NCBI RefSeq assembly: GCF_008727925.1
Contig: NZ_VTWT01000001.1
Coordinates: forward strand, 434,001 to 498,000
From: Adhaeribacter soli
Lineage (GTDB): Bacteria; Bacteroidota; Bacteroidia; Cytophagales; Hymenobacteraceae
DNA length: 64,000 nucleotides
Direction: 5' to 3'
Part shown: positions 416-50,648 of the stretch, one piece after another
How positions within the stretch are numbered: position 1 is the first letter of the stretch
Layout: each line of letters begins with the position of its first letter
Notes under the pieces: generated by a model
Seen by the model: the letters and a program-made list of their open reading frames with translations, nothing else
Told to the model about the DNA's origin: nothing
Databases searched by the model: none
Position numbers and translations under genes: made by a program

Positions 416-456
416 TGATTTGAAAATTTGAAGATTTGGAAATTTGAAAATGAATT
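416..456. repeat. AT-rich periodic repeat of the ATTTGAAGATTTG type
   Basis: Directly after ffh is a run of ATTTGAAAATTTGAAG / ATTTGGAAATTTG units. The same units form the inverted ends of the four-helix-bundle element at 41344-41785 and recur at 16641-16676 and 50657-50698. Confidence 0.7.
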
Positions 457-8818: not shown

Positions 8819-8845
8819 AGTTTTTTCTTTTAGATTGTTCGAATT

Positions 8846-8949
8846 TTCGAATGTTCGAATTTTCGAATTTTTGAGTTAAAATTTAGATAGATACTGCCGT
8901 TTCCTTTAAGGTTCTCACATATCAAAAGTCGAAAATTCGAACATTCGAA
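8846..8949. repeat. TTCGAA-rich inverted repeat
   Basis: A 21-base segment made of TTCGAATG/TTCGAATTTTCGA units (8846-8866) recurs exactly inverted at 8929-8949, directly after the stop of the T9SS cargo gene. It resembles the ATTTGAAG-type repeats in texture but not in sequence. Confidence 0.75.
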
Positions 8950-16885: not shown

Positions 16886-16994
16886 TTGAAGAAGGGTTTT
16901 GTAAAAGGTGTGAAAAAAAGAAAACGCTACCCTTTTCACGCAAAAACTCCAGCCAATTAACAATTAAACCATTTAACAATTAAACAATTTAAAA

Positions 16995-18347
16995 ATGGAA
17001 AAGGTACTGACTTCCGAAAAGGAAGAGATCATCGATAATAATTTAAAATACACCTTATTCTCCTGGCAAAAACAAGCAGGAATAAAACCCCTGGTAATTG
17101 ACCGGGCGGAAGGGGTATATATCTGGGATAAATCCGGCAAACGAATCCTCGATTTTTCTTCGCAACTGGTAAACGTAAATATCGGGCATGGGCACCCGGC
17201 CGTTGCCGATGCGGTGTTGAAGCAGATGCAGGAAGTAAGTTACGTGTATCCGGGCATGGTAACCAAAGCGCGCGGCGAACTGGCTAAAAAGCTGGCCGCG
17301 GTAGCTCCCGGAATCCTGACCAAGACCTTCTTTACGCTGGGTGGTGCAGAAGCCATTGAAAATGCAATAAAAATGGCTCGCCTGGTAACCGGCCGGCACA
17401 AGATCGTAACGCTATATCAGAGTTACCATGGGGCAACCTACGGGGCCATGACGGCTGGCGGCGATCCGCGCAAACTGCCATCCGACAGCCAGCAAATGCC
17501 GAATGTGGTGCACGTGGAAAATCCGTATTTTTATCGCGACCCGTGGCATTCTGCAACGCCGGAAGAATGCGGGGAACGGGCTGCTGAGCATTTCGAAAGG
17601 GTAGTGGGCTATGAAGGTCCGGGCAATATTGCGGCTGTAATTATGGAAGGCGAGTCCGGTTCTTCGGGCTGCATTAAATACCCGCAAGGCTATCTGAAAA
17701 AAGTAAAAACCATTTGCGAAAAACACGGCATCTTATTTATTGCCGATGAAGTGATGAGCGGTTTCGGCCGGACGGGCAAGTGGTTCGGTATTCAGCACCA
17801 CGACGTAGAGCCGGATATGCTTTGCTTTGCCAAGGGCGTTACCTCCGGTTATTTACCACTTGGCGGACTGATGGTTACCGGGGAAATCGCCCGAAACTTC
17901 GACGATAAGCCGCTGCCTTTAGGGTTAACCTATTCGGCGCATCCGGTTTCGTGCGCGGCCGGCTCGGCCGTAATGGATGTTTACGAAAACGAAGGCCTTA
18001 TCGAAAATGCCGCCCGAATGGGTGAATACCTGGAAAGCCGCGTGGAAGAACTCATGCAGCAGCACCCAAGTATCGGCGATTTCCGGAATACCGGTTTGCT
18101 GGGTTGCCTGGAACTGGTAAAGAACCGCGAAACGAAAGAACCGATGGCTCCCTGGAATGCGAACGCTGCCGAAATGGCCATTATGAATCAGGTACAGGCA
18201 AAGCTTTCGGAGCTTGGTATGTACACCATGGTGCGCTGGAATTTTATTTTTATTGCGCCGCCGCTAACCATAACCGAAGCCCAGATAGACGAAGGTTTGG
18301 AAATGATTTCCGAAGCCCTGAAAATTGCTGACGCTTACTGCTACTAA
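16995..18347 (+). CDS. Class III omega-aminotransferase, probably beta-alanine:pyruvate transaminase
   Basis: PLP enzyme of fold type I, class III, 450 residues. It has the PLP-phosphate Gly-Ala region FFTLGGAEAIENAIK, the DEVMSGFGRTG motif with the pyridine-nitrogen Asp251, and Schiff-base Lys280 in CFAKGVTSGYLPLGG. SYHGATYGAM is the aromatic/His segment. In the pathway implied by its neighbours it would move the amino group of beta-alanine to pyruvate or 2-oxoglutarate, giving malonate semialdehyde for MmsA just upstream. Other omega-amino acids (4-aminobutyrate, taurine) cannot be excluded by sequence alone. Confidence 0.86.
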   Translation: MEKVLTSEKEEIIDNNLKYTLFSWQKQAGIKPLVIDRAEGVYIWDKSGKRILDFSSQLVNVNIGHGHPAVADAVLKQMQEVSYVYPGMVTKARGELAKKLAAVAPGILTKTFFTLGGAEAIENAIKMARLVTGRHKIVTLYQSYHGATYGAMTAGGDPRKLPSDSQQMPNVVHVENPYFYRDPWHSATPEECGERAAEHFERVVGYEGPGNIAAVIMEGESGSSGCIKYPQGYLKKVKTICEKHGILFIADEVMSGFGRTGKWFGIQHHDVEPDMLCFAKGVTSGYLPLGGLMVTGEIARNFDDKPLPLGLTYSAHPVSCAAGSAVMDVYENEGLIENAARMGEYLESRVEELMQQHPSIGDFRNTGLLGCLELVKNRETKEPMAPWNANAAEMAIMNQVQAKLSELGMYTMVRWNFIFIAPPLTITEAQIDEGLEMISEALKIADAYCY

Positions 18348-29826: not shown

Positions 29827-29935
29827 CATTTAAACTTGAGAATGAAATTGCCCTACCCTCCAAAGGGTGACAACAATACTTCTCCCAGAGAGAAAAAATA
29901 TTAATCATTAATCATTATCCATTAATCATTAACCC

Positions 29936-37172: not shown

Positions 37173-38732
37173 TTATTCCTGTTGTTTCAGAATCCAGTTC
37201 ACATTGTAAAGATCTTTCCGGCGGTCCATGATGTTCCGAACACTACCGCTCGTATTCAGGTCTTTCAGCAGGTCCAGATCCAGGTCAGCAATAAGGGTCA
37301 TTTCGGTGTTCGGCGTAGCTTCGGCAACTACGGCATCGTGCGGGAACGCAAAATCGGAAGGAGAGAAAACCGCCGATTGCGAGTATTGAATATCCATGTT
37401 TTCGATGCGTGGAATATTGCCTACGCTGCCGGTTATTGCCACGTAACACTCATTTTCGATGGCCCGGGCCTGGGCGCATCTTCTAACCCGGAGGTAAGCG
37501 TTTTTGGTATCGGTCCAGTAAGGTACAAACAGGATCTTCATATCCATATCCGAAAGCAGGCGTGACAGCTCCGGGAACTCCACGTCGTAGCAGATCAGGA
37601 TGCCGATCTTGCCAATGTCCGTATCGAACACCTTCAGTTTCTGGCCGCCGCGCATGCCCCAGTGCGCCAGTTCGTCCGGAGTAACGTGCAGTTTGTACTG
37701 CTTGTCGTACGTGCCGTCGCGGCGGCATAAATAACTTACGTTGTAAAGCTTGTTGTTGCTGTACTCCGGCATGCTGCCCGCAATAATGTTAATGTTGTAG
37801 CTCAGCGCCAGGTGGATCATCTGTTCGCGCACTTCGTCGGTATAATCGGCCAGCGCCCGGATGGCCGCCGAAGAAGTTTTTTCGTCAGACAGAGCCATGA
37901 GTGGGGCGTTGAAGAATTCCGGGAACATTACGATGTCGGCTTTGTAGGAACTTACCGTATCCACGAAAAACTCGATCTGCTGCATCATGTCTTCCAGCGA
38001 GGTAACGCTCCGCATCTGCCACTGCACGATCCCGATGCGAACCACCCGTTTGCTGCCGCCCACAATAACTTCCTGCTCTTCGTAGTACACGTTTATCCAT
38101 TCCAGCAGGGTAGCGTAGGCCTTCGATTCTTTATCCTGAGGCAAATACCCTTTCAGGATCTTGCGCACGTGGAAATCGTTGGAAAGCTGAAAACTCAGGA
38201 TTGGGTCGAAAATCTCTTTGTTGCGGACCTGCTCGATGTATTTACCCGGGGTAAGTTTGTCGGCGTGTTCGAGGTAACCCGGAATGCGGCCGCCGGCAAT
38301 AATCCCGCGAAGGTTCAGGTTTTCGCAAATTTCCTTCCGGGCATCGTAGAGACGGCGGCCCAGGCGAAGGTTTCGGTACTCCGGGTGCACAAAAATATCC
38401 ACGCCGTACAAGGTTTCCCCGTCCGGGTTATGAGTATCGAATTTCCCTTTACCGATGATCTGCTCGTAGGTATGTTTGTCGCCGTAATCGGAATATTTCA
38501 CGATAATACTCAGCGCGCCGGCCACTACCCGGCCTTTGTCTTCGATGCAGATCTGGCCTTCAGGAAAATGCTTCAGCAGGGCCGAAAATTCTTTCTGGGT
38601 CCAGGAGCCGCCGAGGTTCGAATACACCATGTCCATAATTTCTTTAATGGCCTTGTAATCGGAAACGCGGAGGGTTCTTAATATAAGTTTGTGCTCGGAA
38701 ACGTTGGGAGCACTCTTTTCATTTGTAGGCAT
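37173..38732 (-). CDS. GNAT acetyltransferase-nitrilase fusion protein
   Basis: 519 residues in two parts. Residues about 15-215 form a GNAT acetyltransferase-like domain: VDIFVHPEYRNLRLGRRLYD carries the acetyl-CoA-binding R-x-x-R/LGRR motif. Residues about 230-515 form a carbon-nitrogen hydrolase domain with catalytic Glu272 (MFPEFFNAPLM), Lys347 (DKQYKLHVT) and Cys381 (ILICYDVEFPEL). The fusion is a known Bacteroidota architecture but its reaction is not established; deacylating or amide-hydrolysing a substrate that the GNAT half acylates is one idea. It stands outside the pyrimidine cluster and should not be taken as beta-ureidopropionase. Confidence 0.85.
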   Translation of the reverse strand: MPTNEKSAPNVSEHKLILRTLRVSDYKAIKEIMDMVYSNLGGSWTQKEFSALLKHFPEGQICIEDKGRVVAGALSIIVKYSDYGDKHTYEQIIGKGKFDTHNPDGETLYGVDIFVHPEYRNLRLGRRLYDARKEICENLNLRGIIAGGRIPGYLEHADKLTPGKYIEQVRNKEIFDPILSFQLSNDFHVRKILKGYLPQDKESKAYATLLEWINVYYEEQEVIVGGSKRVVRIGIVQWQMRSVTSLEDMMQQIEFFVDTVSSYKADIVMFPEFFNAPLMALSDEKTSSAAIRALADYTDEVREQMIHLALSYNINIIAGSMPEYSNNKLYNVSYLCRRDGTYDKQYKLHVTPDELAHWGMRGGQKLKVFDTDIGKIGILICYDVEFPELSRLLSDMDMKILFVPYWTDTKNAYLRVRRCAQARAIENECYVAITGSVGNIPRIENMDIQYSQSAVFSPSDFAFPHDAVVAEATPNTEMTLIADLDLDLLKDLNTSGSVRNIMDRRKDLYNVNWILKQQE

Positions 38733-39073
38733 AGGGTTTTAGTTTATCGCGAATTCCGGCTTAAAAGAAAGTTCCTGCCCCGGAAGCAGCGCTAATAAGT
38801 AAGGTAAACGCAAAACAAAGTAATAACGATGTTGAAACCGCTAAATTTTAAGGTAAAATTAAAGGAAAATTCGTCAGCATTTACCATGAGACGGTTGGCA
38901 AATTCCGGTTTAAGCAGGGGAGAAGACTAACGCTGCCTATTCCGTCCGTTCTAAAAAGAAAACCGTACACCATTAAAAGAAAAAACTGCTGAATTATCCT
39001 ATAAGAAGTGCTTTTTGTCCGGCAAGGGAGCAAAGAAAGTCTGTTATCTTTGTAGCGTAATTCAGGATTAAAT
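38733..39073. other. Divergent gap between GNAT-nitrilase and DUF983 genes
   Basis: Contains the -7 box TATCTTTG at 39045-39052 for the DUF983 gene. Otherwise no gene or strong repeat was seen. Confidence 0.5.
39045..39052 (+). promoter_or_regulatory. Predicted -7 box of the DUF983 gene
   Basis: TATCTTTG matches TAnnTTTG exactly, 21 bases before the ATG at 39074. No well-spaced -33 TTG is seen. Confidence 0.5.
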
Positions 39074-39478
39074 ATGCAAACAATGGCTAATAAAGGCTCT
39101 AAATTATACAGCATCTTTGCAATGAAATGCCCCCGCTGCAACGAGGGCGACCTCTTTCCGCCGGGCACTTTTTACAGCCCTTCCCGATTCTCCGAAATGT
39201 ATTCGGCCTGTCCTTGTTGCGGGCAAACCTATGAGCCGGAACCTGGCTTTTACTACGGGGCCATGTACGTGAGTTTTGCCATAAGCACAGCCATCTTTTT
39301 AGGGGTGCTTTTTGTGCTTTACTTTCTGGTAGATGAAATTACGTTTACCATGGTGCTTACTTCCATTCTGGTAATTGTAATCGGGTTACTGCCGGTAACG
39401 TTCCGCCTTTCCCGCTCCATGTGGCTCAATATTTTTGTGCATTACGAAGGACCCTGCAACCAGATCCGGAAAAAATAA
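39074..39478 (+). CDS. DUF983 zinc-ribbon membrane protein
   Basis: 134 residues. A cytoplasmic N-terminal zinc ribbon (KCPRCNEGDLF and CPCCGQTYEPEPGFYYGAMY) is followed by two hydrophobic helices (FAISTAIFLGVLFVLYFLV and MVLTSILVIVIGLLPVTF) and a short tail. This is the DUF983 pattern, common across Bacteroidota and Alphaproteobacteria, with no settled function. An ATG at 39083 could also be the start. Confidence 0.9.
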   Translation: MQTMANKGSKLYSIFAMKCPRCNEGDLFPPGTFYSPSRFSEMYSACPCCGQTYEPEPGFYYGAMYVSFAISTAIFLGVLFVLYFLVDEITFTMVLTSILVIVIGLLPVTFRLSRSMWLNIFVHYEGPCNQIRKK

Positions 39479-39531
39479 TCCGGCAGGGGTAAAGCAGCGC
39501 CGGTAACCGGAATTTCCAGTTGGCTTTTTAA

Positions 39532-39539
39532 TATCTTTG
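39532..39539 (+). promoter_or_regulatory. Predicted -7 box of the AraC-family regulator gene
   Basis: TATCTTTG matches TAnnTTTG exactly, 21 bases before the ATG at 39561, implying a leader of only about 15 bases. Confidence 0.5.
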
Positions 39540-39560
39540 GGCTTTCCAGCAGCGCCGGTT

Positions 39561-40439
39561 ATGCCCGAAGATATTTTGCCCGTTTACCAGATCCAGGATT
39601 TTAATGCGCCTTCCGGGCCGGAACCTGATTTTTACGTGAAACGGTTCGAAGACCACTTGCGCGAACATTCCTTTATCCAGAAACCGCACAAACACGATTT
39701 TTACATTCTGATTGTGGTTTCGGAAGGCGCCGGAACGCACATAATTGATTTCCGGTCGTTTGAGGTAAAGGCTGGCAGCGTTTTTTTTCTGAGTCCGGGG
39801 CAGGTGCATTCCTGGCAGTTAAGTGAAGGAACACGTGGCTACGTGTTGTTTTTCAGCCAGGCCTTTTACCTTTTAGGGCATCCGCATAAAAAACTGAACC
39901 AGTTTCCTTTTTTCAACCCCTTGCTCCGGAAGCCTTTGGTCTTGCTACCGGAACCAGCCTTGCAGGAAGCAACCGGCCTGATCCGGCAAATTGAAAACGA
40001 ATATCAGAACCAGGAATGGCGCAAGGAAGATATTATCCGGAACTACCTCGATATTCTACTCATAAAACTGGGCCGTTATTATAAAAGCAACCAGGAAAGT
40101 GACCTGACCCAGTCCGGTTCTTTTTACAACCTTCAGCAACTGGAAGAACTGATCGACCAGCATTTTAAAGCCCACGAACCGGTAAGTTTTTATGCCGAAA
40201 AGCTGCACGTATCGGTAAAGCATCTGAATGAACTCTGCAAGCAGGCCCTGGGCAAAACCACTTCCGAACTCATCCAGGACCGGCTCGTGCTGGAAGCGCA
40301 ACGCCTCCTCATTCATTCCGGCCTGACCATTACCCAGATAGCAGCCGCGCTCGGCTTTTTCGACAATTCCTACTTTGCCCGTTTCTTTAAAAAGCACACC
40401 CGCCAAACCCCGGAACAATTCCGCCAAAGCGCCGCCTGA
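39561..40439 (+). CDS. AraC-family transcriptional regulator
   Basis: 292 residues. An N-terminal cupin-like sensing domain (PHKHDFYILIVVSEGAGTHIID, VFFLSPGQVHSWQLSEGTRGYVLFFS) is followed by a C-terminal double helix-turn-helix (FYAEKLHVSVKHLNELCKQA and TITQIAAALGFFDNSYFARFFKKH, ending TPEQFR). The family binds DNA and often a small-molecule effector. The nearest plausible targets are its own promoter and the neighbouring genes; nothing shows what it senses. Starting at 39561 leaves out a TTG-initiated extension. Confidence 0.92.
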   Translation: MPEDILPVYQIQDFNAPSGPEPDFYVKRFEDHLREHSFIQKPHKHDFYILIVVSEGAGTHIIDFRSFEVKAGSVFFLSPGQVHSWQLSEGTRGYVLFFSQAFYLLGHPHKKLNQFPFFNPLLRKPLVLLPEPALQEATGLIRQIENEYQNQEWRKEDIIRNYLDILLIKLGRYYKSNQESDLTQSGSFYNLQQLEELIDQHFKAHEPVSFYAEKLHVSVKHLNELCKQALGKTTSELIQDRLVLEAQRLLIHSGLTITQIAAALGFFDNSYFARFFKKHTRQTPEQFRQSAA

Positions 40440-40458
40440 AACGGTATATTTTCATTAA

Positions 40459-40499
40459 AAAAAGCCTGCAGCCGGATTTTAACCAGGCAGCAGGCTTTT
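40459..40499 (+). terminator. Hairpin terminator after the AraC gene
   Basis: AAAAGCCTGC (from 40460) pairs with GCAGGCTTTT (40490-40499) over a loop of about 20 bases, with flanking A- and T-runs. Confidence 0.75.
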
Positions 40500-40569
40500 C
40501 GTTTACAGGCGCGAAATCATGGCAATTCTGCGTCTAATACCGGATTATTTTCAGCCTTCCTTTTTTTGA

Positions 40570-40650
40570 ATATAGCGCAAGCGTCCGCTTGTGCTTGCCT
40601 GAATACCGGGTCTACTAAATGGCAAGCACAAGCGGACGCTTGCGCTATAT
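40570..40650. repeat. Exact 30-base inverted repeat (GCGCAAGCGTCCGCTTGTGC)
   Basis: The arms 40570-40599 and 40621-40650 are exact complements with a 21-base loop. Each arm contains an inner partial palindrome AGCGTCCGCTT. It lies between the convergent AraC and scoB genes and could serve as a terminator. Confidence 0.88.
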
Positions 40651-40677
40651 GTGTAAATTAGTAATTACAATAAGCAA

Positions 40678-41334
40678 TTACAGCTGAATTTCCGGAATAT
40701 CGCCTTCCACGATCAGGGTTCCTTCGGTTGCTTTCTGAATGTCTTCCACGCTTACGCCCGGGGCGCGTTCCAGCAGTTTAAAGCCTTTGTCGGTTACCTC
40801 GATCACAGCCAGGTCGGTTACGATTTTCTTTACGCAAGCCAGACCGGTAATGGGCAACGTGCAGGCTTTTAAAAGTTTGCTCTGGCCGTCTTTGCTGGTA
40901 TGCTGCATTGCCACGATGATGTTTTTGGCCGAAGCTACCAGGTCCATGGCGCCGCCCATGCCTTTCACCATTTTGCCCGGAATTTTCCAGTTGGCAATGT
41001 CACCTTTTTCCGAAACCTCCATAGCGCCCAGAATGGTAAGGTCCACGTGCTCCCCACGGATCATCCCAAAGCTGTCGGAGGAACTGAAAATAGAGGAACC
41101 CGGCAGGGTGGTGATGGTTTGTTTACCGGCGTTTATCATGTCGGCATCCACTTCGGCTTCGGTCGGGAAAGGTCCCATCCCCAGCAAACCGTTCTCCGAC
41201 TGCAGCACCACTTCAATGCCTTGCGGAATGTAATTGGCCACCAGCGTCGGAATACCGATACCCAGGTTCACGTACATGCCGTTCTTTACTTCTTTTGCAA
41301 TGCGCTTGGCAATGCCATGTTTATCAAGACTCAT
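40678..41334 (-). CDS. scoB: 3-oxoacid CoA-transferase, subunit B
   Basis: Beta subunit of succinyl-CoA:3-ketoacid CoA-transferase, which moves CoA between succinyl-CoA and acetoacetate. 218 residues, with the catalytic Glu47 in [13 protein letters not shown], and [14 protein letters not shown] and [10 protein letters not shown] typical of the family. Forms a heterotetramer with subunit A. The two genes normally abut, but here a 440-base element carrying a four-helix-bundle gene lies between them, ending 9 bases before the scoB start. Confidence 0.94.
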
Positions 41335-41343
41335 TACTTTCGT

Positions 41344-41785
41344 ATTTGAAGATTTGAAAATTTGGAGATTTGAAAATGGATGATTTCAACCTCCGTTAAT
41401 TTTTCATTTTTGAACTTATAATGATTTTGGAAACTATTTTCTTAATCGAAATTAATTTATGCTGAAGATTTTCCGGGTTGGGATAGGAAGGCGAATTCTG
41501 GCAAAGTAACAGCCAGTAATCAGTTTCCTCAATTTCCTTGGCCGCAATTTTAAATTTGTGAATGAAATCAGCTTTGCTTTCGGCGTTCTGTGCTTCCCGG
41601 ACGTTAGCCCCGATGGAAGTACCACTTTTCAAAAGCTGATTTGCCAGTACATATTTTCTTTCTGAATCCAGTTTTTCTGCATATTGAATTATTGCAAGCG
41701 CAAATTCTAAAGTCAGTTTCAGGATCAGGTTTTCTGGAACGGCTTCCTTCATTTCCAAATTTTCAAATCTTCAAATTTCCAAATC
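41344..41785. mobile_element. Candidate small mobile element with a four-helix-bundle gene and inverted ends
   Basis: A 23-base sequence of ATTTGAAGATTTG type (41344-41366) recurs exactly inverted at 41754-41776, and the similarity extends to about 41785. The only gene inside is the four-helix-bundle (IVS) gene. The left end is 9 bases from the scoB start and the right end overlaps the scoA stop codon. No target duplication and no transposase are visible. AT-richer than the flanking genes. Confidence 0.55.
41396..41752 (-). CDS. Four-helix-bundle protein (23S rRNA intervening-sequence type)
   Basis: 118 residues, all-alpha, with the family block SGTSIGANVREAQNAESK (43-60) and FIHKFKIAAKEIEETDYWLL (63-82). 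These proteins are encoded by intervening sequences in 23S rRNA of Leptospira and others and, as free-standing genes, across Bacteroidota; they resemble the Avd accessory protein of diversity-generating retroelements. The function is not settled. I use the ATG at 41752; a TTG two codons earlier falls inside the inverted repeat. Lies inside the scoA-scoB operon, bracketed by inverted repeats. Confidence 0.9.
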   Translation of the reverse strand: MKEAVPENLILKLTLEFALAIIQYAEKLDSERKYVLANQLLKSGTSIGANVREAQNAESKADFIHKFKIAAKEIEETDYWLLLCQNSPSYPNPENLQHKLISIKKIVSKIIISSKMKN

Positions 41786-42482
41786 AGGAAGGGCGCACCG
41801 TCCGCTGTTCAATCCGCTTCTCGTAGGCTTTGCCCTGGAAAATGCGCTGCACGAAAATGCCGGGGGTGTGGATCATATTCGGGTCCAGTTCGCCGGCCGG
41901 CACGAGTTCTTCTACTTCGGCAATGGTTATTTTGCCGGCGGTAGCCATCATCGGGTTGAAGTTGCGGGCGGTACCTTTGTAAATCAGGTTACCAGCCGTG
42001 TCACCTTTCCAGGCTTTTACGATGGCAAAATCCGCTTTCAGCCATTCCTCCATCAGATACATTTTGCCGTTAAATTCTCGGGCTTCTTTGCCTTCGCCAA
42101 CTTCGGTACCGTAACCGGCAGGCGTGAAGAAAGCAGGAATACCGGCGCCACCCGCCCGGATGCGTTCAGCCAGGGTGCCTTGCGGGATCAGGTCTACTTC
42201 CAGTTCGCCGGAAAGCAGCTGCCGCTCGAATTCGGCGTTTTCGCCCACGTAGCTGGAGATCATTTTTTTAACCTGTTTCTTTTGCAGCAGCAGGCCAATG
42301 CCAAAATCGTCTACGCCGGCATTGTTCGAAATACAGGTCAGGTTCTTTACGCCCAGGCGAAGCAATTCCGTAATGGAATTTTCCGGAATACCGCACAGGC
42401 CAAAGCCGCCCAGCATCAGGGTCATGCCGTCCTGGATGCCGCGACAGGCTTCTTCGGCATCTTTTACTACTTTGTTGATCAT
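41784..42482 (-). CDS. scoA: 3-oxoacid CoA-transferase, subunit A
   Basis: Alpha subunit partner of ScoB. 232 residues with the CoA-binding block [19 protein letters not shown] (19-37), [16 protein letters not shown] and the C-terminal [22 protein letters not shown]. The reading frame ends RTVRPS with a TGA that falls in the last bases of the inverted repeat next door, so the element may have supplied the current stop codon. The pair supports ketone-body or branched-chain amino-acid use. Confidence 0.93.
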
Positions 42483-42727
42483 AGTTCAGAAGGAAATCAG
42501 TTGTGGCAGCGAAGTTAAAGGTTTTTAGGTAATTGTACCCCCTGATTCGGGTTTGATTTTGCCGCGCGACGGATTAAGGTTTTTTGCCGGCTAAATGCTA
42601 CCATTTTGAATAAGAAACCCGGTTTCGGACAGCTTTGGCCTAACCTTCGGGAGAAAACCTTCCGGAAGCTTACCTGTTCTACCTTCAAACGCAAAAGCTG
42701 ATTTGAACGTGCTTGGAAATTACTTGA

Positions 42728-45121
42728 ATGGGGAATAAGGTTGTCCGGCGTGTCCTGGAAATTGTGCTCTGGCTTACCGGTTTGCTGCTTTTAATAACCG
42801 TCACCGTCTTGCTGCTTTTGCAATTACAGCCGGTCCAGCAGCTGGCCGCCGAAAATGCAGCTGCCTACCTTTCCGGCAAGCTTCAGGCCGACGTGCGGGT
42901 AGGCCGTTTTACCACCGACTGGAAAAACAGCCTGGTTTTAAAAGACTTTTACCTGGAAGACCAACAGGGCGATACCCTAATTTATGCAGGGCGGCTCGGG
43001 TTAGACCTCGATATGTTTGGCTTGTTTTTCGGGAAAGTAAAAGTAAGGGACCTGAGAGTAGATAATGGTTTCCTCAATATCCGGTCCACCCTGCCCGATA
43101 GCGCGTATAATTTCGGGCACCTGACCAAAATGGTAGCCCACGGGCCCGAAAAACCCGTCGATACGGCCGCTACTTCCACGCTTGCGTTAAAATTCCTCAC
43201 CCTTACAAATTTCCGGGTGCACGTTAGGGACGAGGTGATGGGAATTTACGGAAAGGCAAAACTCGGGACCCTGCATGTGCAGCTTGACCAGTTCGATCCT
43301 TCACGCAAAATTTACCGGACACGGCAGGTAAAGCTGGAGAATTCAGAGGTCGCATTTTTACAGACCAGGCTGCCGAAACCTGCTACCGATACCTCTGTTT
43401 TGCGCACCAGTTTCCGGGAAATCCATTTTCGGAACGTAAAAATGAATTACCGGAACAGCCCGGCGGCGCAACGCCTGAGCATGGCTTTTGGAAACCTGCA
43501 GATACTCGCTAACCAGATCGATCTGAAAAATGCCCGGATAGATCTTAAAAAATTGCGCCTGGAAAATTCTTCGGTCGCTTATTTTCACGACAAACGGATC
43601 CCCAAAACCGCCCTGGCCATAAACCCGGTCCGGACGGCTGCCCGATTGGATAGTCTGGTGCAGCAGGTACAACAAAAACCCATAAACTGGATCATTTCCC
43701 TGGAAAACCTCGACATTCGGAAAACCGGCTTCCATTATGGGAATTACAACACGCCTGTCTTACCCAAAGGAATCGATTTCAATCACCTGCAATTTTCCGG
43801 CATCAACCTGAAAGTTGATAGAGTTTACTATGGCCAGAAAGTGTTTTCGGCGGAGCTGAAACGGCTGCAATTGCTGGAAAAAAGCGGTTTTCGGGTCACC
43901 GGTTTCAAGGGCGATATTAAAATGGACAAAACCCGTTTGTTGCTCCGGGATTTCGACCTGCAGACAAGCAACAGCCGGCTTCGGGAAAGCTTTATCCTTC
44001 ACTTTCCCCAGCATAAAACAAAAGCAGATTCTACCAAAACCATAGATCTTGTCCTTCGGAAATCTACGGTAGGCTACCAGGACCTTGTTTATTTTAAGCC
44101 GGAACTGGCAACCGCACGGGCGTTCCGGCAGTTTGGCAAAAAACCGTTTTCGGTAGCAGGGCAAATTCTGGGAAATACAGATCTGTTAACCCTTAAAGAT
44201 CTGTCTCTAAAAGCCCGGTCCGGTTCCTCCGTTTCCTGCAGCGGCAATATCCGGAATGCAACAAACGAGCAAATAAGAAAGACGAATTTACAGATTAACC
44301 GGATGAAGGTTTCCCGGCAGGATGCCCTTGCTTTATTGCTACCCGATGCCTTTCCAAAGGGGTTTACGTTACCTGCGGGCATGGTGATTTCAGGGAAGAT
44401 AAACAGCAGCGATGACCGGATCGGGTTGCAGCGTTTCCGGGTTTTGGGTTCGAATGGAATAACGTTTCTGGCCACCGGATCTGTTGAAAAAATTAGCAGC
44501 CGCCAGCAGCTCAATCTTAGCGCACTCAGCTTGGAAACCAGCCGCCAGGCTTTCCTGGAAATGCTGCCGCCGGGAAGTATTTCACCAGAAATTCAGCTAC
44601 CCGACAATATGCTCTTCACGGGAAATTTTGCCGGCAGTTCGCTCGAGAATTTTCGCACCAACCAAAGCCTGGAAAGTACTTACGGGAAAGCAAAATTAGA
44701 CCTGAAGACTTCGCCCAACCAACAATTCAGCGGTATTTTAGAACTGATTGATTTTAACCTGGGCAAATTTCTGAAGCAGGAAAAGAACCTGGGAAGCGCT
44801 ACCGGCACCATGGAATTCCGGGGGAAAGGCCACAAGATCAAAACCATGGAGCTGCATTTTAAAGCCCGGGTTAAACGGATTGTTTACAAGCGGGGCGTTT
44901 ACAGCAACATCCGCCTGGAAGGCGACCTGAACAAAAAGATCTATCAGATGAACGGCAACCTGGCCAACGCCGTGGTCCAGAACCTGGGCCACAAACTAAA
45001 AAAACTGAAGAAGATCCCGCAAAAACTTAATCCCGCCAAAATCAAACCCAAAGAAAAGTTAAAAAAACTAAACCCGCTGAACCTGTTCAAAAGGAAAAAG
45101 AAAAAGGAGGAGCAGGAGTAA
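42728..45121 (+). CDS. TamB/AsmA-like protein, truncated paralogue of the next gene
   Basis: 797 residues. An N-terminal membrane helix (VLWLTGLLLLITVTVLLLLQL) is followed by long AsmA/TamB-type beta sequence. It closely parallels the N-terminal part of the TamB at 45414: VGRFTTDWKNSLVLKDFYLE here against IGRFTTDWRNSLVLKEIYLE there, and ISGKI/ISGRI in the LPxxM repeats. Similarity fades near residue 750, just after IRLEGDLNKKIYQMNGNL, where the protein ends in a Lys/Pro/Leu-rich tail of about 50 residues, without the C-terminal TamB domain. It may be a partial duplicate with its own role, or a decaying copy; the frame is intact throughout. Confidence 0.82.
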   Translation: MGNKVVRRVLEIVLWLTGLLLLITVTVLLLLQLQPVQQLAAENAAAYLSGKLQADVRVGRFTTDWKNSLVLKDFYLEDQQGDTLIYAGRLGLDLDMFGLFFGKVKVRDLRVDNGFLNIRSTLPDSAYNFGHLTKMVAHGPEKPVDTAATSTLALKFLTLTNFRVHVRDEVMGIYGKAKLGTLHVQLDQFDPSRKIYRTRQVKLENSEVAFLQTRLPKPATDTSVLRTSFREIHFRNVKMNYRNSPAAQRLSMAFGNLQILANQIDLKNARIDLKKLRLENSSVAYFHDKRIPKTALAINPVRTAARLDSLVQQVQQKPINWIISLENLDIRKTGFHYGNYNTPVLPKGIDFNHLQFSGINLKVDRVYYGQKVFSAELKRLQLLEKSGFRVTGFKGDIKMDKTRLLLRDFDLQTSNSRLRESFILHFPQHKTKADSTKTIDLVLRKSTVGYQDLVYFKPELATARAFRQFGKKPFSVAGQILGNTDLLTLKDLSLKARSGSSVSCSGNIRNATNEQIRKTNLQINRMKVSRQDALALLLPDAFPKGFTLPAGMVISGKINSSDDRIGLQRFRVLGSNGITFLATGSVEKISSRQQLNLSALSLETSRQAFLEMLPPGSISPEIQLPDNMLFTGNFAGSSLENFRTNQSLESTYGKAKLDLKTSPNQQFSGILELIDFNLGKFLKQEKNLGSATGTMEFRGKGHKIKTMELHFKARVKRIVYKRGVYSNIRLEGDLNKKIYQMNGNLANAVVQNLGHKLKKLKKIPQKLNPAKIKPKEKLKKLNPLNLFKRKKKKEEQE

Positions 45122-45140
45122 TTGCCTCGGTGCCTACGCA

Positions 45141-45173
45141 AAACCTCACAGGTTTCGGAAACCTGTGAGGTTT
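45141..45173. repeat. 15-base hairpin between the two TamB-like genes
   Basis: AAACCTCACAGGTTT (45141-45155) pairs exactly with AAACCTGTGAGGTTT (45159-45173) round a CGG loop, starting 20 bases after the stop. No long T-run, so it may be a repeat as much as a terminator. Confidence 0.8.
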
Positions 45174-45413
45174 GGAAGCTTGCAGGTGTGTTGCTAAATA
45201 ATTTAAGATAAACTTCTTATAAGGTGAATTGAATAAAATTCAAATTTTAATTAAACAGGCCTTCAGGAAATTTATACCACTTTCTGCTGTTTCTTACCGG
45301 CTTCGGAAAAACCGTATCAAAAATTGCACAAAAGTTTATCTTCCTTCCTGAATTTCCGTAGAAAGCTTAGATTTTCCTTTCGGTAAACTAAAATTTCAGG
45401 TCTTATTTCACCT

Positions 45414-48400
45414 TTGAATAAAACAACCCGGCGTATTTTACTGGTCCTGCTCTGGATCCTGCTCATTCCGCTTTCCCTTATTGTAGCATTGGTAATTGCT
45501 TTACAATTTCCGGGAGTACAGCAGTTTGCTGCCCAGAAAGCAACGGGCTACCTGGCCGAAACCCTTAAAACGGAAGTTTCCATTGGCCGCTTTACCACCG
45601 ACTGGCGCAACAGCCTGGTGCTGAAAGAAATCTACCTCGAAGACCAGAAAGGCGATACCCTGATTTATGCCGAAAGGCTGGGAGTGGACCTGAATATTTT
45701 TGGATTGCTGAACAGTAAAATCAACATCAGTTCTGCCAAACTCGACAATGCTGTGCTGAACATCAGTGCTACCATGCCCGACAGCGTGTACAACTTCGAT
45801 TTCATTATGGCTGCTTTTGCTACGGATACCACCGTAGCCCAGCCTTCCGATACCGCTGCTGCCTTTACCTATAAGATCGGGTCCATTGAGCTGAATAACA
45901 TCCGCTTTGCCATGAACGACCAGGTAACCGGCAACATTGTGAAAGCGAAGATCGGGCACCTGAAAACCGGCATGGAAACATTCGATCCGGACAAAGCCAT
46001 TTACGTGCTCGGCAATACTACTTTAGAGAACAGTTATGCCAACGTGCTGCAAACCAAAGTTTCCGATACACCCAGCGATTCCCTGGCCATGGATTTCGAT
46101 TTCGGGCAGATCAACCTGAAAAACATTCAGCTGAACTACGAAAACAAAGTAGCCGCCCAGCGTATCCTGCTCGATGTAAAAGCCTCAGAAATTGCTTCGA
46201 ACGACATCGACCTGAAGAACGCTAAAATTGACCTGGCAAAATTCGACCTTCAAAATGCCGCTTTCGCTTACTACCAGGATAAAACCGTTCCCACCGATTC
46301 CCTGGCCGTGAACCCGGTTGAAACTGCTGCCAAACTCGACAGCGTAGCAGCCAAACACCAGGGCGCGCCGGCAAACTGGGTGGTTAAACTGGGCAACCTG
46401 AATCTGGCCAACGTAACCGTAGATTTCGGGAACTATAATACGCCGGAAACCAACAAGGGCATGGATTTCAACCACCTGAAATTTACCGGGATAAACGTTG
46501 CTGCCGACGACCTTTACTACAGCGAAAATAAAATTGCCGCCGCTTTAAAGCAGTTGCAGTTGCAGGAAAAAAGCGGCTTTAAGATCACCAATTTCCAGGC
46601 GGATATCGACGTGGACTCTACCCGCGCTGCTTTTCACGAATTCGATCTGAAAACCGGGCACAGCCACCTTCGTCCGGAGTTTGCCCTGGGCTATCCTTCT
46701 TTGGCCACCATTGCCGACAACGTAGATAAAATAACGATCGATGCCGACCTGGAAAACTCCGTGATCGGCGCCCAGGATATTCTTTATTTCGCTCCGTACC
46801 TGGCCGATAACCCTTCCTTTCAAAAAATTGCCGGCCGGAGCCTGACCATCGACGGGCGTTTGTACGGCAAAGTGGAAGACCTGAATGCCGAGAACCTCCG
46901 GGTAAAAGGCCTGGCCGGAACCAGCATTAACGTGAGCGGGAACATCAAGGAAATGACCAACATCGAGAACGGTGCGCTGAACCTGAATATAAACGAATTC
47001 ACCACCACCCGCACCGATTTGTTAGCCCTGCTGCCTGCCGGCACCATTCCGAAAGACATTACCCTGCCGGAGCGCATGACGATTTCGGGCCGTATCCGGG
47101 GGCGCATGAACGATCTGGAATTGCAGAATTTCCGGGCGGCGGCTTCGGGCGGGACGCTTTTGGTTGCGAGCGGCACCATCCGTAATGCGACCGATCCGAA
47201 AAAGCTCCGCATGAACCTGGACGTGAACAATTTTACTTCTACCCGGAGCGCCCTGGTGCAAATGCTGCCCAAAGGTACTATTCCGCCGGATATTCAGCTT
47301 CCGGAGAAGATGCAGGTCAGCGGGAAATTCAACGGCTCGCTGGAAGATTTTACCACCAATGCCAACATCAAAACTTCTTTTGGCAATGCGGTGGCAAACG
47401 TAAAAATGCAGCCGGGAGAACGTTTTTCCGGTACGGCCAGCCTTGCAGAATTCAACCTGGGCAAACTTCTGAAACAGGAAGCCACCTTGGGCACGGCTAC
47501 CGGCAGAGCCACTTTCCAGGGAACCGGCCTGTCCCCGGAAACCATGCGCGCCACGTTTAGCGCCGATGTGCAGAAGATCGTTTACAACAAGTACGCTTAT
47601 AATAATATTCACCTCGAAGGCACCGTCGACCGGAATGTTTACGCTGTAACCGGCAACATGAAGGACCAGAACCTTGCCTTTAACCTGAATGGAAATTTCA
47701 ATCTGAACGGAGCCCGGCCAACCTATAAAGCAACCTTAAACCTGGACGGAGCAAATCTGAAAGCGCTGAATTTTTACCCGGAAGACCTTCGCGTACAAGG
47801 CCGGATCGTGGCTGACCTGAGCGGCGCTTCACCCAACGATATGAAAGGTACCATTTCGGTAAGCAATTTGCTCATGCGGAAGGCAAACCGGAACTACCGC
47901 TCCGATACTATGGCCATTCAGCTGAATAACAGTCCAGGACGCACCGATGTAGCCATTCAGTCGGATATTGTAACGGGTTTTTTCCGGGGAAATAATAGCG
48001 TTTCCGACCTGCCAACGGCCTTAATGAAGCACTTCGATTCCTACTTTAATTTCCAGGACGAACCGTTTCCGGCCAACCTTACTTTGCAGGATTTCGATTT
48101 CAATTTCGACCTGAAACGGCCGCGCATTTTCACGGCTTTTGTACCGGGTTTACGCCGCATCCGGCCGGGTTTTGTGAAAGGAAACTATACCGTTGCCGGC
48201 AAAAACCTGAATATCGATGCCAGTTTGCCCCGCCTGATCTACCAGAATTATACCATCGACAGCACCCTTCTGGAGCTTCGCGGCGACGCGGAAAAGATCG
48301 GCTACAACCTCCAAACCAAAAGACTACAGGATTCCACTTTGCTGATCAGGAATTTAAGCCTGGGCGGGAACGTACAGAACAATACCATTGCCACGCGCCT

Positions 48401-50648
48401 GAATATTGCCGAAGACAACGGCGATTCCCGGTTTGCGCTGGGAGGCATAATGAATACCATTCCGAACGGTTACCGGTTCAGTTTTACGCCGGGCGAAGTA
48501 ATTATAAACCGCGAACCCTGGAATGTGGCCGAAGACAATTACCTGCAGTACCAAAACGGCAATATTTTCGCCCGGAACGTGCGGCTCGGCAAAAACGGCA
48601 GCGAACTCCTGATCAACAGCTTGGGAACCAATACAGCCAATGCGCCCCTGGAAGTGCGGTTTACGAATTTCGACCTGGCGTACCTTTCCCGGGCTGTGGA
48701 GCGCACCGACAGCCTGGTAGCGGGTAACGTGAACGGCAACCTAGTGCTCCGCGACATAACCGGCAACCTGGGCTTTACCTCCGACCTGACCATCACGAAC
48801 CTGGCTTATACCGGCAACCCGGTCGGCAATATTTCTTTACAGGCGAGCAGCGCGGCCGGCGGCCGGTACAACCTGCTGGCCACGCTTACCGGCAACGGCA
48901 ACAACGCTACGGTGAACGGCTATTTTGTGGCCAACGGCACTTCAAACAACCTGAACCTTACGGCCGATATCGCGTCGCTGAACCTGGCCGCCATTCAGGG
49001 TTTCTCAGCCGGTCAACTGGAAAACGTATCGGGAAATCTGAACGGCCGCCTGAGCATTACCGGAACGATGGCTCAACCGGTAATCAGAGGGGAAACTACT
49101 TTCAACAACGCGGCATTTGCCATTACCATGTATAATTCGGTTTACCGGCTGCCAAATGAAAGCATTGTTTTCGATGAGCGGGGCCTGAACTTCAGCGATT
49201 TTACCGTGCTAGATTCGGCCGGGAACAAAGCGGTGATGAACGGTACTATTTTCACGCAGAACTATACCGATTTCAGCTTCGGGCTTACGGCCACTACCAA
49301 GAACTTCCTGCTCATAAATTCTACCGCCGGCGATTATAAATTATACTACGGCCGCCTGATCGTGGACAGCGATATCCGGATACGGGGCGACCTGAACCTG
49401 CCGGTGGTAACGGCCGATGTGAAAGTGGTGGAAGGCTCGCACATGACCATGGTAATTCCTTCGGAAGAGGCGGCAAAACAGGAGCAGGAGGGAATCGTGC
49501 AGTTCGTGAACCTGCACCGGAGACGGCCGAACTCCATGATGATGGAAGAGCGCCAGGATTCGGTGCAGGAAATGGCTGTAACCGGAATAGATGTGCATGC
49601 CACCGTGCAGATTACGGACAAAACCCTGGTCTCGGTAATTATGGATGAAGCCGCCGGCGATATTCTGGAAGTTACCGGAAACGGTACATTGAACGCTGGA
49701 ATCGATCCGGCCGGCAATATTACCCTTACCGGGCGCTACGACATGAACGGCGGATCCTACAAGCTTCATTTCTACGACATTGCCAGCCGGGAGCTCAACA
49801 TCGGGGAGGGCAGCAGCATTACCTGGTACGGCGATCCGCTGCAGGCCAACCTCGATATTAAGGCTATTTACAACGTGAAAGCGCCGGTGCGCGAACTGGT
49901 GGCTGATCAGATAGTCGGTGAGAGTGGCACGGAACAAAATAAATACCGCCAAGTGCTGCCTTTCCTGGTTTACGTGAACCTTCGGGGCGATATGCTGAAA
50001 CCGGAAATTACCTTCGACATCCAATTGCCGGAAGAAGAGCGCGCCGCTTTTGGCGGACAAATAGACCAGCGTTTACAAATGCTCCGCCAGGAACCGGCCG
50101 AGATGAACAAACAGGTTTTCTCGCTGATCGTGCTGAACCGGTTTATGGCGCCCGATCCGTTGCAATCTTCGGGCGGCGGCCTGGAGCAGACCGCCCGCAA
50201 CAGCATCAGCGGTGCCCTCAGCGATCAGCTGAATAAGTTAACCAACCGTTATGCCGGCGGCCTGGGACTGGAATTAGGTTTGAACACGTACCAGGATTAC
50301 TCTACCGGCGATGCCCAGAACCGTACCGACCTGAACGTTGCCGTGCGGCAGCAATTCCTGAACGACCGCCTGATCTTCCGGGTAGGAACGGACATTGGAG
50401 TAGAAGGCCGCTCGCCGAACAGCCAGCAAAACCAGCGCAGCGGTTTTACCGGCAATTTCTCGGTAGAATACCTGATCCTGCCGGATGGCCGCTTGCGCGT
50501 AAGAGGTTTTCAGCAACCATCTTACGAATTGCTGACGGAATCGGAGGTGCTGGAAACCGGGGTTGCATTGGTGTACCAGCGCGATTACAACAGTTTTGCC
50601 GACCTCTTTAAACGGGTATCCAAGGCTCAGCGGGAAGCGAAGCAGTAA
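45414..50648 (+). CDS. tamB: TamB, translocation and assembly module inner-membrane protein
   Basis: 1744 residues. One N-terminal membrane helix (ILLVLLWILLIPLSLIVALVIAL) is followed by a giant beta-helical periplasmic body and a C-terminal TamB domain (DUF490) from about residue 1290: DSDIRIRGDLNLPVVTADVK, LNIGEGSSITWYGDPLQANL and FLVYVNLRGDMLKPEITF, ending near FSVEYLILPDGRLRVRGF. It bridges inner and outer membrane, works with the TamA/TamL barrel and has been linked to phospholipid transport and assembly of outer-membrane proteins. The only possible start is TTG at 45414, since the frame is stopped at 45384 and no ATG or GTG intervenes. tamL follows 388 bases on, separated by repeats. 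Confidence 0.92.
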   Translation: MNKTTRRILLVLLWILLIPLSLIVALVIALQFPGVQQFAAQKATGYLAETLKTEVSIGRFTTDWRNSLVLKEIYLEDQKGDTLIYAERLGVDLNIFGLLNSKINISSAKLDNAVLNISATMPDSVYNFDFIMAAFATDTTVAQPSDTAAAFTYKIGSIELNNIRFAMNDQVTGNIVKAKIGHLKTGMETFDPDKAIYVLGNTTLENSYANVLQTKVSDTPSDSLAMDFDFGQINLKNIQLNYENKVAAQRILLDVKASEIASNDIDLKNAKIDLAKFDLQNAAFAYYQDKTVPTDSLAVNPVETAAKLDSVAAKHQGAPANWVVKLGNLNLANVTVDFGNYNTPETNKGMDFNHLKFTGINVAADDLYYSENKIAAALKQLQLQEKSGFKITNFQADIDVDSTRAAFHEFDLKTGHSHLRPEFALGYPSLATIADNVDKITIDADLENSVIGAQDILYFAPYLADNPSFQKIAGRSLTIDGRLYGKVEDLNAENLRVKGLAGTSINVSGNIKEMTNIENGALNLNINEFTTTRTDLLALLPAGTIPKDITLPERMTISGRIRGRMNDLELQNFRAAASGGTLLVASGTIRNATDPKKLRMNLDVNNFTSTRSALVQMLPKGTIPPDIQLPEKMQVSGKFNGSLEDFTTNANIKTSFGNAVANVKMQPGERFSGTASLAEFNLGKLLKQEATLGTATGRATFQGTGLSPETMRATFSADVQKIVYNKYAYNNIHLEGTVDRNVYAVTGNMKDQNLAFNLNGNFNLNGARPTYKATLNLDGANLKALNFYPEDLRVQGRIVADLSGASPNDMKGTISVSNLLMRKANRNYRSDTMAIQLNNSPGRTDVAIQSDIVTGFFRGNNSVSDLPTALMKHFDSYFNFQDEPFPANLTLQDFDFNFDLKRPRIFTAFVPGLRRIRPGFVKGNYTVAGKNLNIDASLPRLIYQNYTIDSTLLELRGDAEKIGYNLQTKRLQDSTLLIRNLSLGGNVQNNTIATRLNIAEDNGDSRFALGGIMNTIPNGYRFSFTPGEVIINREPWNVAEDNYLQYQNGNIFARNVRLGKNGSELLINSLGTNTANAPLEVRFTNFDLAYLSRAVERTDSLVAGNVNGNLVLRDITGNLGFTSDLTITNLAYTGNPVGNISLQASSAAGGRYNLLATLTGNGNNATVNGYFVANGTSNNLNLTADIASLNLAAIQGFSAGQLENVSGNLNGRLSITGTMAQPVIRGETTFNNAAFAITMYNSVYRLPNESIVFDERGLNFSDFTVLDSAGNKAVMNGTIFTQNYTDFSFGLTATTKNFLLINSTAGDYKLYYGRLIVDSDIRIRGDLNLPVVTADVKVVEGSHMTMVIPSEEAAKQEQEGIVQFVNLHRRRPNSMMMEERQDSVQEMAVTGIDVHATVQITDKTLVSVIMDEAAGDILEVTGNGTLNAGIDPAGNITLTGRYDMNGGSYKLHFYDIASRELNIGEGSSITWYGDPLQANLDIKAIYNVKAPVRELVADQIVGESGTEQNKYRQVLPFLVYVNLRGDMLKPEITFDIQLPEEERAAFGGQIDQRLQMLRQEPAEMNKQVFSLIVLNRFMAPDPLQSSGGGLEQTARNSISGALSDQLNKLTNRYAGGLGLELGLNTYQDYSTGDAQNRTDLNVAVRQQFLNDRLIFRVGTDIGVEGRSPNSQQNQRSGFTGNFSVEYLILPDGRLRVRGFQQPSYELLTESEVLETGVALVYQRDYNSFADLFKRVSKAQREAKQ

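Follow-up and report, generated by a model that had tools for sequence, protein, structure and literature searches.

The four-helix-bundle (IVS) gene that separates scoA from scoB in the window (the whole 64-kb stretch of DNA analysed here) lies between two inverted tandem arrays of a short unit, and the unit of such arrays is very probably linked to the clade of the IVS protein that they enclose. We propose a selfish (or tamed) element of the IVS type, with a protein that serves the element's own family of arrays, similar to a RAYT-REPIN system but without a nuclease, a reading that we consider evenly balanced between right and wrong.

Structure of the element between scoA and scoB

The positions of the element, its neighbors and related arrays in the window are given in Table 1. 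The core of the bracketing repeat is an exact inverted match of 23 bases (41344-41366 and 41754-41776) around a lone IVS gene, as the first-pass annotation had reported, and the wider arms, 41344-41369 and 41751-41776, are complementary at 25 of 26 bases. The same annotation had placed about 9 bases between the element and scoB and the scoA stop in the right end; the distance from the left arm to the scoB start is indeed 9 bases, and the outermost unit of the right arm overlaps the TGA stop of scoA. What it had missed is that the ends are not unique sequences: each arm is a tandem octamer array of ATTTGRAR (TRF, period 8), unlike the end of a simple transposon, and arms turn over at one and the same site (see below).

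Table 1. Arrays and genes of the window, with window positions and strands.
Feature	Position	Strand	Remarks
ATTTGRAR array, window IVS type	418..451	+	decayed at the equivalent place in the congener G001
Inverted array pair (8828-8871 + 8924-8949), L002 unit type	8828..8949	.	present in G001
ATTTGRAR array past a stop codon	16641..16674	+	present at the equivalent place in G001
Dispersed array, L005 unit type	16953..16996	-	TRF and arm match
Dispersed 7-nt array, L004 unit type	29900..29932	-	absent at the equivalent place in G001
scoB	40678..41334	-	downstream neighbor; TIGR02428, 326 bits
Left arm, ~4 units of ATTTGRAR	41344..41377	+	downstream arm in the orientation of the IVS gene
IVS gene (four-helix bundle, S23p, PF05635)	41396..41758	-	only ORF between the arms
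Right arm, ATTTGRAR read on the minus strand	41753..41785	-	upstream of the IVS gene
scoA	41784..42482	-	upstream neighbor; TIGR02429, 279 bits
ATTTGRAR array past a stop codon	50658..50689	+	absent at the equivalent place in G001

The IVS ORF scores 75 bits with PF05635 (cut-off 33.8) and 88 bits with TIGR02436. Nothing other than PF05635 matched in the Pfam search of this ORF, and the insert contains no transposase, in agreement with the first-pass annotation. The ORF can start at a TTG, giving 120 aa, or at the ATG at 41752, giving 118 aa and abutting the right array; the ATG is the likelier start. The element sits between two protein genes and not inside an rRNA gene, and an Rfam search of positions 38000-46000 at the gathering score gave no match, indicating no known RNA family there.

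Inverted arrays around IVS genes

We analyzed 92 of 130 IVS matches in 39 genomes (83 of 86 inside the family and 9 of 44 outside; G026, with 15 matches, contributed one). For each locus we aligned the 300 bases preceding the gene with the reverse-complemented 300 bases that follow it, and thresholds were taken from mismatched pairs (95% level, 26; 99% level, 40). The score exceeded 26 in 88 of the 92 IVS genes of this genome and its relatives and the 99% level in 44 of the 92, whereas mismatched pairs inside one genome never scored above 32; the locus L077 is shorter than the test presumed, and its frame may be off. None of 41 other genes of the window was bracketed (highest score 25). The repeats are thus linked to IVS genes rather than scattered at random, which the first-pass annotation had left to be checked. 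The repeat at the window locus is itself beyond chance, since its score was 47 against at most 25 in those 41 genes and the array pattern matched 15 times in the 64-kb window against 0.27 expected.

Of the 88 bracketed loci, 58 had a best array period of 7 and 28 one of 8 (86 of 88 together). The arms have a median length of 32 and a median inner distance of 390 bases, and they are C-poor on the strand of the gene. Their units are very diverse and include AAGACAC, GTTGTTA, TTAATGA, AATTGTTA, GAATGAGT, ATTTGRAR and many others.

A wider set of named genomes comprised the best 80 of 584 loci and therefore leans toward the clade of the query; three of the 80 were dropped for short flanks, and 12 loci from viral contigs stood outside the analysis. 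Of the 77 testable loci among these best 80, 60 passed 26, the level of the relatives, and 26 passed the 95% level of mixed pairs within this set, 41, a value raised by the mutual resemblance of arrays from one clade.

Genes of the GxxExxY family (PF13366; L156-L180, with L166 in this genome) likewise lie inside inverted short-unit repeats. From a sample of 24, two short loci were skipped; 19 of the 22 tested scored above 26, and 16 of 22 exceeded the set's own mixed-pair 95% level of 35. Their units, of AGGATTT, CGCAGAGG and CGGATTT types, differ from those around IVS genes.

The array unit follows the clade of the IVS protein

The period test covered 137 loci with a clear period from the relatives and the named genomes (the latter among the best 80 of 584). 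When each locus was compared with its nearest IVS relative at another site in another genome, the period was identical in 116 of 136 cases, versus a mean of 69 and a maximum of 94 after shuffling; for the relatives alone the count was 60 of 80, with a mean of 45 and a maximum of 59 in the shuffles. In the clade of the window protein, defined by at least 50% local identity and comprising 68 loci with arms, the period was 8 in 64 loci and 7 in four. The octamers of this clade share the skeleton A-T-(T/G)-T-G-N-N-(A/G) both at scoA-scoB (22 loci) and at other places (42 loci). Two loci, L271 and L263, were labeled scoA-scoB in this test; the IVS gene of L271, which is counted within the 22, lies past scoB, and L263 has scoA only. 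A unit model derived from the scoA-scoB arrays gave a median of 0.88 bits per base on the arrays of the clade at other sites, compared to 0.19 on other period-8 IVS arrays (p 7e-7) and -0.22 on shuffles.

The same association was seen in counts over whole genomes, in which the arms of each IVS locus are counted as well. The eight known carriers of the clade have 4, 5, 20, 25, 37, 79, 94 and 180 matches to three consecutive units of this skeleton (skeleton 1); the four matches of G028 all lie in the arm of its IVS locus, and G011 totals only five. In the 31 other genomes there were no matches in 23 and 1 to 22 in eight (p 4e-6); for the family alone, in which almost every IVS gene had been typed, p was 7e-5, and both values ignore kinship. 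A second clade (L005 type) has the unit RATKGYTR (skeleton 2), with counts of 0, 0, 16, 16, 18, 20, 23, 25 and 58 in nine carriers; the two carriers with zero counts have arrays of period 7 of their own. Among 30 non-carriers, 22 had none and the rest 1 to 18 (p 2.5e-4, or 0.004 for the family only, again ignoring kinship).

In the cross tests skeleton 2 showed no such association with the first clade (p 0.26), and skeleton 1 correlated with the second clade (p 9e-4) because G000 (this genome), G001, G010 and G011 carry both clades. The family genomes with the first clade only (G007, G016 and G021) have 20, 37 and 94 matches of skeleton 1 and 4, 0 and 0 of skeleton 2; those with the second clade only (G003, G009, G017, G018 and G023) have 0, 2, 5, 9 and 1 of skeleton 1 and 20, 16, 25, 18 and 23 of skeleton 2. 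Reversed skeletons gave at most one match per genome. Some genomes, among them G026 (22 matches; 1 of its 15 IVS matches typed) and G002 (9 matches), have arrays with no known cognate gene. Linkage of unit and clade across different sites is what would be expected if the IVS protein reads the array. Since both the period and the skeleton follow its clade, the four-helix protein, which the first-pass annotation had taken for cargo, is more plausibly a protein that belongs to the element itself.

Dispersed arrays in the genome

The search of this genome for other IVS genes and for the same ends, a check named in the first-pass annotation, returned six IVS genes in all and 111 matches of the three-unit ATTTGRAR pattern (overlapping matches counted), compared with none for the pattern read backwards. 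Across the 39 genomes the congener G001 has 47 matches, yet its own scoAB-type IVS gene bears TAATGTGC arrays; three more genomes have 1 to 4, and the other 34 have none. The abundance of ATTTGRAR is a lineage-specific expansion.

The matches listed comprise at least 45 ATTTGRAR stretches. Counting arms of at least 24 nt outside mechanical ORFs of at least 120 aa gave 56 arms among the matches listed; the outer side lay within 10 nt of an ORF in 43 of these 56 (30 at a stop, 13 at a start) and the inner side in 3 of 56, where random placement in the same gaps would put a fraction of 0.107 near an ORF. Also among the matches listed, there were at least 13 convergent pairs within 600 bases, at least 35 solo arms and no divergent pair. 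One of these 13 pairs holds the IVS gene; another, the inverted ATTTGRAR pair L213 (1503-1979, G000:C12), surrounds a gene of the LprI family (PF07007) in its place. The other 11 contained no gene recognized by eye, and tblastn revealed no IVS similarity in them.

In the window TRF reported 10 rows with a period of 7 or 8: two for the arms of the element, one at 48852 that is coding and was excluded, and seven that correspond to six intergenic places. Each of the six matches the arms of one of the genome's six IVS genes, three being of the element's own type and one each of the L002 (a pair), L005 and L004 types, with scores of 30-57 versus shuffle maxima of 24-35.

Two further arrangements were observed. 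Near 55000 on contig C21 of G001 (L228), at the place corresponding to 16641 in the window, the array is followed by a small hydrophobic ORF that differs from the window's and has no Pfam match and no evident right arm. At G000:C9:709557-709624 and C8:639149-639236, arrays of the TAATGTGC and ATTTGRAR types directly abut, as if one type grew or landed beside the other.

The scoA-scoB junction and turnover of arms

A scoA match was found in 35 genomes; 30 loci were examined, and scoB adjoined in 26. The junction is polymorphic, with an IVS gene in 8 of the 26 and an empty site in six (gaps of 2 to 42 bases), so the empty sites that the first-pass annotation proposed to look for in close relatives exist. 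The junction IVS genes of G000, G021 and G016 have ATTTGRAR-type arms, those of G001, G007 and G011 TAATGTGC arms and that of G028 AAATGTGA arms; G004 carries a different IVS class with a different unit. The remaining 12 junctions were inspected by eye. G018 and G023 have a gene-less inverted TAATGTGC pair, and G022 has an apparent remnant of an IVS gene. Another gene occupies the junction in G019 and G024 and, together with a pair of arrays, in G013, G003 and G008. GC-rich inverted repeats were seen in G010 and G014, and other short repeats in G009 and G020. Comparing occupied with empty junctions by eye, we recognized no target duplication, and no movement event was seen. The gene-less TAATGTGC pairs in the scoA-scoB gaps of G018 and G023 (L056 and L057) enclose further hairpin sequence, perhaps a second short element nested there.

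Seven of the eight junction IVS proteins fall into one clade (support 100/100) in a tree with few columns relative to rows. The clade also contains L134 of G010, which lies at another site yet has TAATGTGC-type arms. Inside it, the window protein joins those of G021 and G016 (support 100/97), apart from that of the congener G001. It is 77% identical to the protein of G021, from another genus but with the same array type, and 73% identical to that of G016, compared to about 60% for G001, which has the other array type. By contrast, ScoA and ScoB of G000 share 96% identity with those of G001, and 93 and 85% identity, respectively, with those of G021. The grouping of the IVS proteins conflicts with these identities, which indicates that the IVS element and its flanking genes have different histories.

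The arrangement recurs across Bacteroidota. In the best 80 of 584 named loci, an IVS gene lies between scoA and scoB in 23, in Kordia, Gillisia, Salegentibacter, Elizabethkingia, Flavobacterium, Pontibacter, Rufibacter and other genera, and two further loci of these 80 have sco genes on one side only; the arms score above 26 in 14 of the 23. One locus, L274, titled as a Bifidobacterium breve MAG, has a Bacteroidota-like scoA-IVS-scoB arrangement, and its contig is probably mis-binned or mislabeled. The shared clade and the wide occurrence of the scoA-scoB position across the phylum rule out a purely recent insertion. The suggestion of a small mobile element in the first-pass annotation is thus partly supported: the inverted ends, the empty sites and the link with IVS genes speak for it, but the insertion at this junction is not a recent one. 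From comparison of sequences, mobility of the element and its arrays appears probable.

Overall, the 92 IVS loci occupy 38 sites. Nineteen sites are filled in at least two genomes; a cut-off of 45% identity divides the occupants of seven of them, and for at least five the occupants come from different clades of the tree. The count is given as a minimum since, among the seven splits, L154 is a 69-aa fragment and the pair L105/L002 is 40% identical. In 129 pairs of the same site and class, the arms of different genomes aligned with a median score of 20, and 44 pairs reached 26; the median was 40 for the two arms of one locus and 10 for random pairs. Arms therefore change fast yet remain matched.

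The IVS protein

The AlphaFold2 model of the window IVS protein has four helices and a pLDDT of 92. In the Foldseek comparison the model matched 2RLD best, followed by 2GSC, both of the S23p kind and with five chains; a separate search had matched the protein to 2RLD at E 8e-22. The window protein is probably pentameric; PMC4990558 describes the S23p protein of Xanthomonas as a homopentamer and the function of S23p proteins as not known. Weaker matches were to the Avd proteins of diversity-generating retroelements (DGRs) (4DWL, 8UB7, 8UB8 and 8UBE; TM by query 0.58-0.68, E 0.15-0.44), and some unrelated four-helix bundles, among them pectin methylesterase inhibitors, match the model no worse than Avd does. 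A homology between PF05635 and Avd has been suggested (PMC10053308). The Flavobacterium psychrophilum IVS protein FP0094 is listed with a log2 fold change of -2.38 in mature biofilm in PMC5787105, so this IVS gene appears to be expressed.

Proposed mechanism and alternative explanations

The proposed element would consist of one gene of the S23p/Avd kind bracketed by two inverted arrays of the 8-nt unit of its clade. Its protein would recognize its own array unit, and this recognition would maintain and spread the array family; whether the protein binds its own array is, judged from sequence patterns, a question that we weigh equally in both directions. Arrays would land at gene boundaries as solo arms, as gene-less inverted pairs or as pairs enclosing some other gene. 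The enzymes that cut and join strands would be those of the host or others, because the element encodes no nuclease and no reverse transcriptase of the PF00078 family was found in the genome. Reverse transcription in trans was rejected as the mover for the latter reason, PF00078 being the reverse transcriptase family searched. In the operon mRNA, the arms would pair into a long stem, and RNase III may cut the insert out as in rRNA IVSs, which may be why the insert is tolerated.

The strongest competitor is an origin in place, in which an old, mainly vertical IVS gene is flanked by passive arrays that grow by slippage, their arms being copied via hairpin template switching, and the protein does not serve them. 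It would explain the concerted change at shared sites, where arms of different genomes are far less alike than the arms of one locus, the recurrence of IVS genes at shared sites and, given the lack of wobble bias described below, an arm matching that looks DNA-level. However, local growth alone predicts neither an identical unit at tens of places within a genome nor a skeleton that follows the protein clade across different sites, and we consider this origin unlikely. The last observation also weighs against an ordinary small transposon or MITE in which a transposase encoded elsewhere moves anything between arrays, since passive cargo would not predict units that follow the IVS clade. Such a transposon would fit the array pair around the LprI-family gene, the pairs with no recognized gene, and place 50658, where the array is found in G000 but not in G001; no target duplication was recognized by eye at the junctions. 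The family searched for such a transposase, Y1_Tnp, has seven genes in the genome (L186-L192), all on other contigs, and six of the seven have inverted flanks scoring above 26. These flanks look like REP hairpins, as expected for RAYTs, and not like the arrays described here, so the Y1 transposases were rejected as owners of the arrays. The transposon explanation as a whole appears improbable.

The arms could instead act in RNA, as an immobile processing or control unit that is retained because it controls the operon; its mRNA stem would be a substrate of RNase III or an autoregulatory binding site of the IVS protein. In the minimum-energy fold of the minus-strand transcript, the arms do form a single uninterrupted 23-bp stem, but the stem lacks any G.U pair, the z-score of the fold is only -1.8, and 7 of 100 shuffles were equally stable. 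The wobble test across the IVS arms gave 92 sense-wobble and 92 antisense-wobble changes, with no sign of selection at the RNA level, which is thus unsupported for the stem. The position of the right arm next to the IVS start codon and the RNase III cleavage described for the Coxiella rRNA IVS (PMC4990558) are in line with an RNA unit, whereas the dispersed arms are mostly solo (35 versus 13 pairs among the matches listed). We regard this explanation as quite improbable.

If the IVS protein does serve its arrays, a broader generalization can be offered tentatively. The four-helix IVS/S23p proteins may be nuclease-free drivers found throughout the phylum, with a clade-specific "code" of 7- or 8-nt arrays; the arrays of a genome would be owned by its few IVS genes, the arms at a site would change in concert while keeping their complementarity, and the rRNA IVSs, discovered more than 25 years ago, would be a special case that landed in 23S genes. 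To our knowledge, maintaining a repeat family is a role known only for transposase-like drivers, and we know of no explained means of spread for intergenic short tandem arrays. The link between IVS genes and arrays means that the function of S23p proteins and the spread of the arrays share one direct question, namely binding of the protein to its own array. Should such binding occur, a helix-bundle protein without catalytic machinery would maintain a repeat family, and the Avd of DGRs would gain a relative whose nucleic-acid partner can be read from the genome.

Comparison with known systems

In RAYT-REPIN systems, one gene is framed by repeats that it is thought to serve, and many non-autonomous copies, some of them inverted pairs, are dispersed in the genome. 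The window IVS gene is likewise framed by a repeat that is also dispersed, and the dispersed copies of its type include inverted pairs (13 among the matches listed). The differences are that the window gene encodes a four-helix bundle without an HUH/Y1 nuclease and that its arms consist of head-to-tail 7-8-nt units, in contrast to palindromic REPs. Any likeness to DGRs would be confined to the four-helix kind of fold, for which the Foldseek comparison of the model with Avd (4DWL and 8UB7) gave E values no better than those of unrelated bundles; the window IVS gene stands alone in its element, in a genome where PF00078 has no match.

The 23S rRNA IVS of Coxiella burnetii, as described in PMC4990558, has an S23p ORF with a tandem heptamer, GACAGAT, upstream of it, and inverted repeats at its ends that pair into a 28-bp stem, within which RNase III cuts. 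It shares with the window element the single S23p ORF, the stem-forming terminal repeats (28 bp in Coxiella, 23 in the window) and the short tandem repeats just upstream of the ORF (a heptamer in Coxiella, an octamer in the window). The window element differs in its position between protein genes, its 8-nt unit and its dispersed gene-less copies.

Among the papers listed in a literature search that covered no preprints and few subscription journals, none links non-rRNA IVS genes to inverted short-unit arrays, which speaks only weakly for novelty. The closest published counterparts found are the intergenic TAACTGA heptamer arrays of Beggiatoaceae, Cyanobacteria and Bacteroidetes (PMC4679880), and the text of that paper makes no mention of S23, helix bundle or intervening. 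According to that paper, these arrays are also short tandem 7-nt units, mostly intergenic and near start or stop codons, with a means of spread that is not known. They differ in being nearly all direct repeats, with one inverted case in the main genome, and in having been read as possible regulatory sites (PMC4679880).

A repeat of another kind lies downstream of scoB in the window, at 40575-40645, where an exact inverted pair of GCGCAAGCGTCCGCTTGTGCTTGC, 23 bases apart, looks like a REPIN.
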